A stretch of DNA of 64,000 nt from Candidatus Eiseniibacteriota bacterium (lineage in GTDB: Bacteria > Orphanbacterota > Orphanbacteria > Orphanbacterales > Orphanbacteraceae): positions 372,001 through 436,000 of the forward strand of contig JAJCZU010000003.1 of NCBI GenBank assembly GCA_029262235.1, given 5' to 3'. A program made the position numbers and the translations under genes. The notes under the pieces were generated by a model, which saw only the letters and a list, made by a program, of their open reading frames with translations, was not told where the DNA came from and searched no databases. How positions within the stretch are numbered: the first letter of the stretch is position 1; each line of letters begins with the position of its first letter. Of the stretch, positions 28,701 to 56,101 are shown piece by piece.

Positions 28701-29260
28701 GCCCGCTTCTGGACAACCCGGACGAAATCACGGCGAACGGCGCGACGGCCATCATGAACTTCGCCAGCACGAATGGACCCACGATGTTCCGCAACGTGAT
28801 TCCGCATGCCGGTCCCGGCGCGGATTCCAAGGTCATCGTTTCGTCCACGCCGATCGACCTGTACACCAGCGCGCAGATGCGTGACTGCGTGATGCAGGCC
28901 GTGCTGACGGACTTCGGTGTCGGTATTCCGAATCCGAATACCAACTGCGTAATCGACGTTGGTGTCGATACGGGTGTTCCGCAGCGTGTCACGCTGCATC
29001 AGAACACGCCGAACCCGTTCAACCCGCTTACGAAGATTCGCTTCAGCATTCCGACGCAGCAGAAGGTCGACCTCAAGATCTTCGACATCGCCGGTCGCGA
29101 AGTGAAAACCCTCGTCAGCGGCGCCCTTCCTGAAGGCGATCACTCGTACGAGTGGCGCGGACAGGACAACGCTGGTAACGGCGTTGGATCGGGTGTCTAC
29201 TTCTACACCCTCAATACTGATGGTCAGAAGCAGACGAAGAAGATGGTGCTCATCCGCTAA
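25772..29260 (+). CDS. Large secreted surface protein with FlgD/T9SS-like C-terminal sorting domain
   Basis: This is a protein of 1,162 residues. A signal peptide spans residues 1 to about 25 (ending VSATA). The body is Gly/Asp/Asn/Trp-rich, with several beta-sandwich-like blocks ending AWRVDNVS or TFLVDNVSFG. The C-terminal ~90 residues form an Ig-like sorting domain: HQNTPNPFNPLTKIRFSIP, then IFDIAGREVKTLVSG, GSGVYFYTL and a final MVLIR. Such domains send proteins through type IX-like systems to the cell surface in the FCB group. The ATG at 25772 has GGAGGG seven bases upstream; an earlier in-frame start at 25715 lacks a signal peptide. Codons favour GGT, CGT and GCT far more than the neighbours, a mark of high expression. 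Strong promoter, long leader and strong terminator agree. Function is unknown, possibly a major surface component. Confidence 0.88.
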   Translation: MRNRTLSYFAAGLGAVCLFAVSATAEITTTPKEPTSQRVINGEILTEDGGIAYTKVAAPGDTAWIRVWDGTECDPTGVVSDGGQGILAPGYATWCWEGGNLGGGLFDTCATTTAYGGGLPGCFDHYDVFTALTNKWHLDTFDSFDPIGDPNGVTPWCGEFGDPLIWQNAYGYGPAYNFSLILNLGSTTSGALVTGFDASGGFTVAGQHMYDVEINYDYCYLEYAVSNDSINATWFELDRYNGTSNLDGGCTGTGGPAPNYGCAQYESFSANGPAVNNSATNVYVRWRFASDNAWDDEDASGGVHTDGAWRVDNVSADGLAGGTDYPTQGFGSTHEGPLPAQWSTPNFPGAQLGGFWSGGVWVNGTPVSVDWWHLELDPSYSNKGNTCTYTNNWIWTADDAAFGQNQEDAYHYRLTSPVFDTSENNPYWDPNNDGPGADNKWTGVVLEFDSYLCIKDIVGDVTDQQVRVYDGSANVWGQWGGDNYVNVGGCQFWTVDARTDWSSQLTSTSDSIQFSWEFLDRCDYNSAGELPCMGQHRKATFLVDNVSFGVFQSRATQWSLGGANQFQDTFARDTDMHSSGKENWEMFAADTWEDEDSLQIEVRDFDGLKGGQVKVHWRISTDCGQNFDLDNGRPAGGTAAPAAVYNQKALNFSLADDPIGCPGTPCEFNGSYRSRIRISENLGYLGGGATEWPEGTLIEYFFTAEDSVGNLDTFPNRQSLARTDANLINTTIGHDRRLEWPFQVRVLPCPTSKVALGAGQNQRVLLVSRPQGRTYDVETDPTQSQAGNVAFPQFRQMWRESLDRLGVVYDEYRIYSSGVSRGGGTPIYNEPFDHDGYGGAIARNAGAITGRRYESVVWFTGRFNDNLTMADSTQLEVATYLDKNATNFSGGANLFIAGNDICEANELSDPAWVDANSVQTTNGAEFWLNLAGLQAETGGCPDDGGLSAAPGGNVIGLVGQPGTIMSDLTALVGYWDCPLLDNPDEITANGATAIMNFASTNGPTMFRNVIPHAGPGADSKVIVSSTPIDLYTSAQMRDCVMQAVLTDFGVGIPNPNTNCVIDVGVDTGVPQRVTLHQNTPNPFNPLTKIRFSIPTQQKVDLKIFDIAGREVKTLVSGALPEGDHSYEWRGQDNAGNGVGSGVYFYTLNTDGQKQTKKMVLIR

Positions 29261-29290
29261 GCTTCGCTTGGCAGATTGCAGATAGCATCG

Positions 29291-29322
29291 CCGCCGGGAT
29301 CTTCGGATCCCGGCGGCTTTTT
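29291..29322 (+). terminator. Rho-independent terminator
   Basis: An 11-base perfect stem (CCGCCGGGATC 29291-29301 with GATCCCGGCGG 29306-29316) is closed by a TTCG tetraloop and followed by CTTTTT. It lies 30 bases after the stop of the surface-protein gene and is the clearest terminator in the window. Confidence 0.95.
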
Positions 29323-29373
29323 CGTGTCTGCATCGGAGGGTGCGCGGCGGGGGGAGGTCGGCTCTGTATTGTT

Positions 29374-29450
29374 GCGCGGGTCCTGTCGCGCCCGGCCACC
29401 CCTGCCTCGGCAGGCTCGGCAGGGGTCCCCGTCGGGCGCGCCACCCGCGC
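29374..29450 (-). repeat. Nested palindromic repeat, copy A
   Basis: This is one of three copies of a 75-81 base element (others at 31016-31096 and 54587-54661). Read on the minus strand it has outer arms GCGGGTGGCGCG and CGCGACAGGACCCGC and an inner stem CCCCTGCC / GGCAGGGG around the loop core GAGCCTGCCGAG. A purine run at 29519-29551 (pyrimidine on the minus strand) lies 68 bases upstream in the element's own orientation. The rest of 29323-29594 shows no gene or other clear signal. Confidence 0.85.
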
Positions 29451-29518
29451 AGAGAGGGAGAGCGATCATTCCCGCCGCGATGTCGACGCAGGCACGAAGA
29501 AAGCCGCTTGTCTCTTGC

Positions 29519-29551
29519 GAGGGGGAGAAGAGGGGGAGAGGAAGAGGGAAG
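29519..29551 (-). repeat. Polypyrimidine tract (minus strand) linked to repeat copy A
   Basis: There are 33 uninterrupted purines on the + strand, hence pyrimidines on the minus strand. It sits 5' of palindromic repeat copy A when both are read on the minus strand, matching the arrangement at copies B and C. Confidence 0.8.
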
Positions 29552-30885: not shown

Positions 30886-30957
30886 CCCCTTCCTTCTCTT
30901 CTCTTCTCTCCTCTTCTCCTCTTCTCCTCTTCTCTTCTTCTCCTCTTCTCTTCTCCT
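30886..30957 (+). repeat. 72-base uninterrupted polypyrimidine tract
   Basis: There are 72 consecutive C/T bases made mainly of CTCTT and CTCCT units, between the beta-helix gene and palindromic repeat copy B, which starts 58 bases later. Mirror-like pyrimidine tracts of this length can form triplex DNA, and in RNA could bind pyrimidine-tract proteins. The remainder of 30858-31141 holds repeat copy B and small GC dyads, and no gene. Confidence 0.9.
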
Positions 30958-31015
30958 GATTCCTACCGCTGACAAAAAACTGGTTCGTTCGGGGGACCCC
31001 CGATGTTCGAAACCC

Positions 31016-31096
31016 TGTGCGGGTGGCGCGGCGGACGGGGCCCCCGGCCGAGCCTGCCGAGGCCGGGGAGGTGTCCGCCGTGACAGGACCCGCACA
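31016..31096 (+). repeat. Nested palindromic repeat, copy B
   Basis: This 81-base copy has outer arms TGTGCGGGTGGCGCGGCGGA and TCCGCCGTGACAGGACCCGC, and an inner stem CCCCGGCC / GGCCGGGG around GAGCCTGCCGAG. It sits between two convergent genes. Compared with copies A and C, the inner stem differs but pairing is kept. Confidence 0.88.
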
Positions 31097-31141
31097 GCCT
31101 CTCTCGTACTCGCGGCCGGGCCCCCCGGGACGAAAACGCGA

Positions 31142-31561
31142 CTAGAACCAGATCGGATTGAAGACGTCGAAGAATCCGGCGAGTCCGACGGCGAGCACGG
31201 CAAGAAGGGATGCGGCGAGCATGTAGTTCGTCGTGTTCGACGCGTCGATCACTTCGAATGTGCGGATCGAACTGCGGGCAACGCGGACGGTGCGTTCGGG
31301 TGATGCTTCGAGTAGGACCACTTCGCGCGGCGTGATTGCGACAACGGTACCCTGGAGCGTACGGCCCGTGGTCCGGAGTGTCGCGCGGGCGTGTTTGCCG
31401 ACAAGGGTGTCGAGGCTCTGTTCGTGCGCGACGAGATCTTCCATGCGGGCGCTGTCGGGCGGTGAAAGCGAAACGGTGTCGAGCGTACGCGAGCAGGACG
31501 TGAATATCATCAGGCAGGCGAGGGCCGCGCAGACGAATCGTTCGAAGGTCGTTCGCATCAT
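31142..31561 (-). CDS. Small lipoprotein with C-terminal membrane segment
   Basis: This 139-residue protein has a lipoprotein signal ending FTSC (Cys 23). A central beta-rich region follows (LVGKHARATLRTTGRTLQGT and REVVLLEASPERTVRVARSS), with the feel of an SH3-like or Sm-like barrel, then a hydrophobic C-terminal segment at about residues 112-132. I do not recognise the family. The ATG overlaps the stop of the upstream gene at 31558, so it is probably co-translated with that MFS/SpeE-like TPR protein and may be its membrane partner. Confidence 0.75.
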   Translation of the reverse strand: MMRTTFERFVCAALACLMIFTSCSRTLDTVSLSPPDSARMEDLVAHEQSLDTLVGKHARATLRTTGRTLQGTVVAITPREVVLLEASPERTVRVARSSIRTFEVIDASNTTNYMLAASLLAVLAVGLAGFFDVFNPIWF

Positions 31562-54303: not shown

Positions 54304-54478
54304 GCGCCCCCCGGCCCCACGATCGAGGGAGGGGAAGGAATAGGAAAGAGGCGGAAGGAGGAAGAGGGGGGCGGACAGAGTAAAAGGCGGAAAAGAGGGC
54401 GAAATGAGGCCGCAGAGCGGTGAGCGGAGACATCCTGGGGCAATCGCCCGCCGGTCGCCCATCCCACCCGTCGCCCCG

Positions 54479-54515
54479 TCTCTCCTCCCTTCCTCTCTTC
54501 TCTTCTCTTCTCTTC
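54479..54515 (+). repeat. 37-base polypyrimidine tract linked to repeat copy C
   Basis: There are 37 consecutive C/T bases, mainly TCTTC units, ending 71 bases before palindromic repeat copy C in the same orientation seen at copy B. Confidence 0.88.
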
Positions 54516-54586
54516 GCCTTACTTCGTGTAAGGTGTTCAGATTGTGTCAGTTGCCTTGAATACTCACTCCCTGAGTGTGGTAGCAT

Positions 54587-54661
54587 GGCGGGTGGCGCGC
54601 CGGGCGGGGACCCCGATCGAGCCTGTCGAGATCGGGGTGCCGCGGCGCGACAGGACCCGCC
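54587..54661 (+). repeat. Nested palindromic repeat, copy C
   Basis: This 75-base copy has arms GGCGGGTGGCGCG and CGCGACAGGACCCGCC and an inner stem CCCCGATC / GATCGGGG around GAGCCTGTCGAG. It lies 142 bases upstream of rpsU. Confidence 0.88.
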
Positions 54662-54802
54662 AGAGAACCCACCAGGGTTGATTTTCCTTGGACAACTGAC
54701 GACATTCTGATAACTTACGACGGTTGAGTAATAGCGGGAGTACGTGTGCCCCGCGCCGGCAGCTTCGGCTGCCCAGAATATCCGGGAAAGGGTGTGATAA
54801 GT

Positions 54803-55003
54803 TTGACACGTGTCAAGGTCAAGGACGGCGAGCCGATCGACAAGGCGATCCGGCGCTTCAAGAAGAAGTGCGAAAAGGATGGAATCATCCAGGATATGCG
54901 CAAGAAAGCTCGCTTCCTAAAACCCAGTGAACGGCGCCGCAAGAAAGCCCTCAAGGCTGAAAAGCGACGACGCACGGAGGCAGCAAAAGCAGCTTCGTAC
55001 TAG
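54803..55003 (+). CDS. rpsU: 30S ribosomal protein bS21
   Basis: This 66-residue basic protein starts TRVKVKDGEPIDKAIRRFKK and continues with KARFLKPSERRRKK, as expected for bS21, which helps the 30S subunit engage the anti-Shine-Dalgarno region. TTG 54803 has AAAGGG about nine bases upstream; GTG 54794 in frame is an alternative, giving three more residues. Upstream in-frame ATG 54746 would add a non-family extension. It heads a + strand run with a small CxxC protein and rpmI. Confidence 0.93.
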   Translation: MTRVKVKDGEPIDKAIRRFKKKCEKDGIIQDMRKKARFLKPSERRRKKALKAEKRRRTEAAKAASY

Positions 55004-55110
55004 AAATAAAATAGAGCGATTCACGAAGACGAGCAGGTTCAGACGACGATTAGTGTGTACGCGGGGTGTTGTTTCAGACCGGCCCCCCGCAATGGTTGGG
55101 AGGAGTGACT

Positions 55111-55302
55111 GTGAACCGTCGAAACGCGGACCAGAACGTTCTTGTGAAGGGCACCACGAACAGCACCTTTGATATCCTTCTCAGGAAAGCGGAAGAAGAT
55201 GGGCGTGTCGGAGGCAAATACCAATGCCTCATTTGCGGCATGTCCTTTCATCAGAAATCCGAATCGAAGGCATGCTGTGCGATGCTTCGTGAAAAGACCT
55301 AA
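55111..55302 (+). CDS. Small CxxC / CC protein between rpsU and rpmI
   Basis: This 63-residue protein of unknown family has an N-terminal half rich in polar residues ([19 protein letters not shown]). The C-terminal half carries [20 protein letters not shown], whose four Cys and one His could bind zinc. GTG 55111 has GGGAGGAG five bases upstream. It ends 14 bases before rpmI, so it is probably co-expressed with ribosomal proteins, and a ribosome-associated zinc-ribbon role is possible. The 107 bases before it include a GCGGGG/CCCCGC pair (about 55057-55090) but no other gene. Confidence 0.7.
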
Positions 55303-55316
55303 CAGGAAGAAACTTC

Positions 55317-55511
55317 ATGCCGAAGATGAAAACCCATAAGGGAATGGCAAAGCGCGTAAAGAAGACCGGGACGGGCAAGTACCTGCGCGGTCATGCTTAC
55401 ACGAGCCACATGTTCTCCCACAAGACGCAGAAGCAGAAGCGGAAGCTCCGCCACAATACTGTCTGCAGTCCGGGTGACACGGCGCGCATCCGCGTGCTTC
55501 TGCCGAACTAA
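55317..55511 (+). CDS. rpmI: 50S ribosomal protein bL35
   Basis: This 64-residue protein begins [20 protein letters not shown] and contains [20 protein letters not shown], diagnostic for bL35. In most bacteria rpmI lies in infC-rpmI-rplT; here neither infC nor rplT is adjacent. The ATG at 55317 is preceded by AACAGGAAG. A HEAT-repeat protein gene begins eight bases after its stop. Confidence 0.96.
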
Positions 55512-55519
55512 GGGCTCAC

Positions 55520-56101
55520 ATGAATTTGCGACTGGTGAGAGCGCTGTCTCTGGCAGCGCTTCTCTTTCCTCTGATTGCCTCAGCGGAAACGAAAGAAGAG
55601 GAAGCGACCCGCTACCTCGATACGATGGTGCAGTCGGTTCTCGAAGGAAACGACCCGATGCGGAACCGGATGTTCATCCAGTTGCGCTATCTGGGTGAGC
55701 CTTCGATCGAACCGCTGCTGGGGGCGCTGCAGAACGGCGACTGGAAAGTGCGTCAGTACGCGGCTTTCACGCTCGGGTTCTTCGACAGCCCCCGGGTGGT
55801 CGACCCGCTTCTGAATCTCTTCCAGAAAGACCCCGAACTCGAAGTGCGCGCCACGACGGCCGAAGCGTTAGGACGCCTCGAGGCGACGGCGGCGGTCGAT
55901 CCGCTGCTGAAAGCGCTGAACAGCGACCAGGCGAAGATCCGCCAGTCGGCGGCGTACGGTCTCGGGCTGATTGGAAGCGACAAGGCGAAGGGCGCGCTCG
56001 AAAACGCCAGGAACAACGACCCCGATGAGTTGGTCCGATTCTTCGCCGGCGAAGCGCTCGACTGGATCGAACGCGCGATCGCCATGAAGAACCGCTCCTG
56101 A
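55520..56101 (+). CDS. Exported HEAT-repeat protein
   Basis: This 193-residue protein has a signal peptide (about 1-22, ending LIASA). At least four HEAT repeats follow: YLGEPSIEPLLGALQNGDWK, RQYAAFTLGFFDSPRVVDPL, VRATTAEALGRLEATAAVDPL and IRQSAAYGLGLIGSDKAKGAL. The repeats form a curved helical solenoid for protein binding, probably in the periplasm. It precedes a LolA-like gene by 11 bases, which suggests a shared role in lipoprotein or envelope handling (inference). Confidence 0.85.
   Translation: MNLRLVRALSLAALLFPLIASAETKEEEATRYLDTMVQSVLEGNDPMRNRMFIQLRYLGEPSIEPLLGALQNGDWKVRQYAAFTLGFFDSPRVVDPLLNLFQKDPELEVRATTAEALGRLEATAAVDPLLKALNSDQAKIRQSAAYGLGLIGSDKAKGALENARNNDPDELVRFFAGEALDWIERAIAMKNRS

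Follow-up and report, generated by a model that had tools for sequence, protein, structure and literature searches.

A dispersed, putatively mobile family of folded palindromes with inverted arms at gene edges in an Orphanbacteraceae genus

A folded DNA sequence of about 70 bases, present three times in the window (the 64,000-nt stretch of a Candidatus Eiseniibacteriota genome analyzed here), belongs to a dispersed family whose copies keep a fixed polarity toward neighboring genes, often sit between inverted arms, show cores homogenized across sites and have been swapped for other sequences at some sites between species. We favor, at a probability of about 0.55, the reading of this family as non-autonomous, palindromic and mobile, of the REP/MITE type, with cores that spread or convert between old sites of inverted duplication beside genes.

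An earlier note on this DNA had described three copies with common outer arms and loop, and had proposed a covariance-model search in which finding no further copies would count against a family. The three copies are present where the note placed them (Table 1), and a model built from 24 genomic copies returned 29 matches in the same 4.47-Mb genome (G000; E 2e-14 to 4e-5) and 22 in the second sampled genome of the genus (G001; contigs matching JABDJQ01, 'Gemmatimonadetes bacterium SS_bin_27'). The genus sample comprises these two genomes, one of them fragmented into 830 contigs, many ending inside elements. The same search of five other genomes of the phylum gave no match to this family (family 1). 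Copies are mostly intergenic, and cores at different sites reach an identity of 1.00, yet their flanks differ. At one G001 locus (L091, G001:C193:2962-3463) four cores form a tandem array with a spacing of ~138 bp, and shorter tandem pairs occur at two G000 loci (L056, L057).

A wider contig scan gave at least 113 pattern matches, 80 of those listed being scored with the model and the rest judged by eye. Among the matches listed, most were due to chance and strong model scores came only from loci in the same genus and in Rokubacteria, and a wide taxonomic spread was rejected on this ground; further relatives may exist beyond these loci. Plasmids and phages that were searched held no match to the element, nor did model scoring give one for three viral pattern matches. 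Rfam found only a tRNA in the window at gathering thresholds and nothing credible for the element at relaxed ones, in agreement with the earlier note, which had recognized no named RNA family.

Table 1. Cores and arms of the three copies in the window
Feature	Position	Strand	Remarks
Copy 1 core (CGGGT...ACCCG), inner stem TGCC/GGCA	29377..29447	-	Model match G000:C3:401369-401455, E 2.1e-13
Copy 1 5' arm, imperfect inverted copy of gene-side arm	29459..29507	-	41/55 alignment columns identical
Copy 1 3' (gene-side) arm	29313..29365	-	Just past terminator-like hairpin of gene ending 29260
Copy 2 core, inner stem GGCC/GGCC	31020..31092	+	Match G000:C3:403012-403100; G001 has ortholog
Copy 2 5' inverted arm, weak	30984..31019	+	30/43 columns; p 0.035 vs cross-locus control
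Copy 2 3' arm	31093..31134	+	Adjoins 3' end of convergent gene 31142-31444 (-)
Copy 3 core, inner stem GATC/GATC	54589..54659	+	Model match G000:C3:426581-426667
Copy 3 5' inverted arm	54519..54581	+	49/69 columns identical
Copy 3 3' arm	54667..54731	+	Highly conserved between the two species

The three window copies have CGGGTGGCGCG...GACAGGACCCG and the loop GAGCCTGYCGAG in common, and differ in the inner stem after CCCC/GGGG just as had been claimed. All three fold better than their dinucleotide-shuffled versions, with z between -3.1 and -3.8. The putatively mobile core, ~70 nt, reads CGGGT-GG-CGCGNC-NGRAC-GGGG-NCCCC-NNNC-GAG(CCTGY)CGA-GNNN-GGGG-...-GNCGCG-ACAGG-ACCCG, and its top strand forms three stacked stems with a GG/ACAGG internal loop and a GGGG bulge. 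In three copies (L015, L016, L019) the ACAGG motif occurs again in an additional hairpin, GTGTGGCGGGGAGCCACAGG or a sequence close to it, which produces a three-way junction.

Across 52 distinct copies, 92.4% of pair cells hold a standard pair, 18 of the 29 pairs have changed on both sides (158 cells being double changes), and none of 500 shuffles reached the covariation score; the signal was lost when the partner strand was shifted by 1-3 columns. Because this alignment was fitted to the covariance model, we used an unfitted alignment, A3, as an independent check; there, 12 pairs changed on both sides and again 0/500 shuffles reached the score. The compensatory change claimed for three copies thus extends to the family. 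The accompanying statement that every copy keeps full pairing does not, since columns 22-73, 25-70 and 39-57 are unpaired in 17, 18 and 10 copies, respectively. The repeated unit is also larger than the note described, because three variable outer pairs and longer inverted arms lie outside it. Those three pairs, just beyond CGGGT/ACCCG (columns 6-8), vary freely while 132 of 135 cells are Watson-Crick and none is G.U; at the next two positions outward, Watson-Crick pairing is limited to 26 and 18 of 46 copies.

At paired positions (core plus the three outer pairs) G.U outnumbers A.C by 36 to 3, which is suggestive of selection on a folded top strand, as RNA or single-stranded DNA; it is not proof, because the count by column is 12 vs 3 and the copies are related. 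The note's view that selection acts on fold rather than sequence has some support as regards the fold; against its second half, the unpaired GG, GGGG and ACAGG are nearly invariant.

Outside the core, each locus has a 5' flank that matches its own 3' flank imperfectly in inverted orientation and in register, with arms of ~35-80 nt. The banded arm score averaged 13.9, compared to 6.1 for cross-locus flanks (Mann-Whitney 2e-11) and 6.6 for off-centre positions (Mann-Whitney 6e-9), and arms were significant at p<0.05 in 14 of 22 loci and not significant in the other 8. At one locus (L058) a sigma-factor-like gene contributes its C-terminal coding end as the gene-side arm, and the 5' arm repeats that coding end in inverted, decayed form, so the gene side is the original there. 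The two arms of a window copy are ~72% identical, below the 84-87% between orthologous arms of the two species, so the duplications predate the species split and the cores now present need not have made them. Given the age of the arms, cores may have been added to palindromic sites that already existed; the polarity described below argues against random insertion while fitting either order. Many loci have, 5' of the core, CT microsatellites rich in pyrimidines and a TCCKGATTCCTCACKTCGCGAA-like motif that recurs between sites (in the window at 30930-30960, 54340-54520 and 29515-29540). On the other side of copy 3, a non-coding stretch at 54670-55370 is ~95% identical between the two species over 700 nt, above most flanks, and has no Rfam match; the first called gene begins only at 55520.

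Genes were called with a simple codon-based script written for this analysis rather than a published finder, and 20 loci with usable neighbors were chosen by hand to measure polarity, which excluded any locus that was truncated or had a called ORF running through the element. The nearest gene lay on the 3' side of the core in 19 of the 20 (median 80 vs 369 nt), and on that side lies either an opposite-strand gene, reached at its stop codon, or the upstream region of a gene on the same strand. We rejected insertion into random palindromes already present, which would not result in polarity. With respect to genes, copies occur in both orientations and lie ahead of probable promoters or past stop codons, and about half adjoin the 3' end of an opposite-strand gene; at several same-strand loci a -35/-10-like sequence is visible by eye between the element and the start codon. 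These candidate promoters, judged by eye, and the position of about half the copies beside opposite-strand 3' ends led us to reject a riboswitch or leader RNA. An intrinsic terminator was likewise rejected, as the element is not followed by a U tract and copy 1 already has a separate terminator-like hairpin beside it; this hairpin (window 29290-29316) has a T run and directly follows the gene ending at 29260.

Orthologous sites persist between the two species, with compensatory differences (e.g. L051/L079, L065/L080, L062/L085). For 9 of 12 ortholog pairs, the ortholog is not the nearest G001 core (it is in 3), and many of the cores in G000 have an identical counterpart at a different site, which together indicate that cores are homogenized within a genome, by re-insertion or conversion. 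This weakens the case for reading the orthologous differences as independent compensatory evolution. Other sites have turned over. Two are degraded between species (L240, L243); at the first of these, beside cysS, G001 keeps only the 3' half of the element, and this is the best candidate for an empty site, no clean one having been found between the two species compared. At two more (L268 vs L093, L276 vs L081), G000 has a core of a second family, surrounded by family-1 remnants, where G001 has a family-1 core. Where G001 has the cores L090 and L087, G000 carries, respectively, a very large imperfect palindrome of ~415 nt (L292:945-1425, G000:C2) and an HNH-endonuclease gene (L297:480-1598; PF01844, E 7.5e-6). 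Together, the mixed strand, the positions upstream of promoters or past stop codons, the core homogenization, the site turnover and the conservation of unpaired bases lead us to prefer a mobile hairpin element, which fits better than an RNA gene or riboswitch.

The second family is an unrelated palindrome with a CCCATTGGCCGTACGCCAGG centre (18 pattern matches, G000 loci L265-L282). It shows the same polarity as family 1 at 16 of 17 loci, and weaker inverted arms at some of them (observed mean 12.9 vs null 10.1). A relative in another phylum, the only distant one among the matches listed, is found in a Rokubacteria MAG (JACPHL01, G098; loci L251-L264), where a MITE-like unit of ~215 bp in ~13 copies has terminal inverted repeats of ~22 bp around GGGATTATTCATGAACG and contains the same core ends and unpaired motifs as family 1.

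Like REP, BIME and REPIN sequences, the element is a short, imperfect, extragenic palindrome, non-coding, dispersed and often downstream of genes, and with 29 mostly intergenic copies it is a high-copy extragenic palindrome in the REP sense. It differs from them in its three stacked stems with conserved internal loops and its locus-specific inverted arms. By the definition in PMC3733652, REPs of the GTAG and CGTC superfamilies carry an unpaired GTAG or CGTC tag at one hairpin end; our element has no such consensus tag in A3 columns 1-8 and 86-93, and its three innermost flank positions are paired. G000 also lacks a RAYT gene (Y1_Tnp, PF01797), and a RAYT-driven REP was rejected on that basis. 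As no reverse transcriptase (RVT_1, PF00078) was found in G000, which is ~95% complete, in G001 or in G098, a reverse-transcriptase retroelement was rejected too, and these two absences leave the family with no known mobilizer. Integron attC sites bear R boxes (RYYYAAC/GTTRRRY) at their ends, unlike the consensus CGGGT/ACCCG ends here. The element resembles MITEs in being non-autonomous and palindromic, as well as in the terminal inverted repeats of its Rokubacteria relative. An apparent contrast to MITEs is that no shared terminal repeat past the core is seen in this genus, the ends common to the G000 copies being only the 5-bp CGGGT/ACCCG. The immediate flanks, by eye, look like inverted complements rather than direct repeats, and searches for the RAYT and reverse-transcriptase families identified no transposase for it. 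The nesting of family 2 inside family 1 recalls the IS elements that target REPs, mobile elements inside a palindrome (PMC1525189); here the inserted piece is instead a small non-coding hairpin of an unrelated family.

For the mobile element that we favor, a core would arrive or be refreshed through transposition or ectopic gene conversion. The hairpin form of the core could let a nascent strand that ends in it snap back and copy the adjacent flank, which would leave an inverted arm on the 5' side of the core and restore stem pairing. Such snap-back template switching would make or maintain the arms, in an order of events that we infer. A bolder version seems doubtful to us: a class of hairpins would insert strand-specifically beside gene edges by snap-back copying, each insertion producing an inverted duplication of its target, and several unrelated cores would compete for the same sites.

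That host selection on an RNA or DNA fold holds the element at gene edges, as a boundary, an insulator or an RNA 3'-end hairpin, is possible but not probable. Such a functional cis element would account for the fixed position beside gene boundaries, the many orthologous copies retained with near-zero change in conserved bases, the compensatory change at orthologous sites and the bias toward G.U over A.C. It sits poorly with the sites that differ between species, whether degraded, swapped or replaced. Moreover, with orientation to genes mixed, transcription does not always yield the same RNA, copy 1 lies past its neighbor's own terminator-like hairpin, and the U tract is missing. Selection at the level of the element would be dispensable if the quasi-palindromes were by-products of template switching during replication, spread by gene conversion alone. 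According to PMC8794818, hairpins can arise by template switching, as can compensatory double changes, and our loci share with those hairpins the inverted copies of neighboring sequence and the double changes. The inverted arms in register with the core fit this origin, as do the outer pairs, which have undergone many double changes yet are strictly Watson-Crick and never G.U. Our loci depart from those hairpins in having a specific dispersed core at the centre and a fixed polarity; such a by-product does not explain why one specific conserved core of 70 nt, with its unpaired bulges conserved, recurs at ~29 sites and in a second phylum, nor a polarity present in two unrelated families, and the trend here, for unpaired core bases to stay fixed while the arms drift, also goes against it. 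We consider it unlikely. A SINE-like retroelement RNA, inserted by target-primed reverse transcription with snap-back synthesis of the inverted arm, would be expected to yield the polarity seen here and to repeat the gene-side flank in inverted form 5' of the core, and would suit the RNA-like G.U bias of the top strand; we regard it as very unlikely given the lack of an RVT_1 gene in all three genomes, including the nearly complete G000.

If the mobile-element reading is true, covariation in dispersed bacterial hairpins would not automatically indicate a functional RNA, as homogenization and template switching can mimic it. That gene edges are copied in inverted form, and with one polarity in two unrelated families, would then suggest an undescribed route by which small palindromes spread and remodel promoter and terminator regions, and the element loci would provide a natural data set on which to test template-switch models in bacteria.
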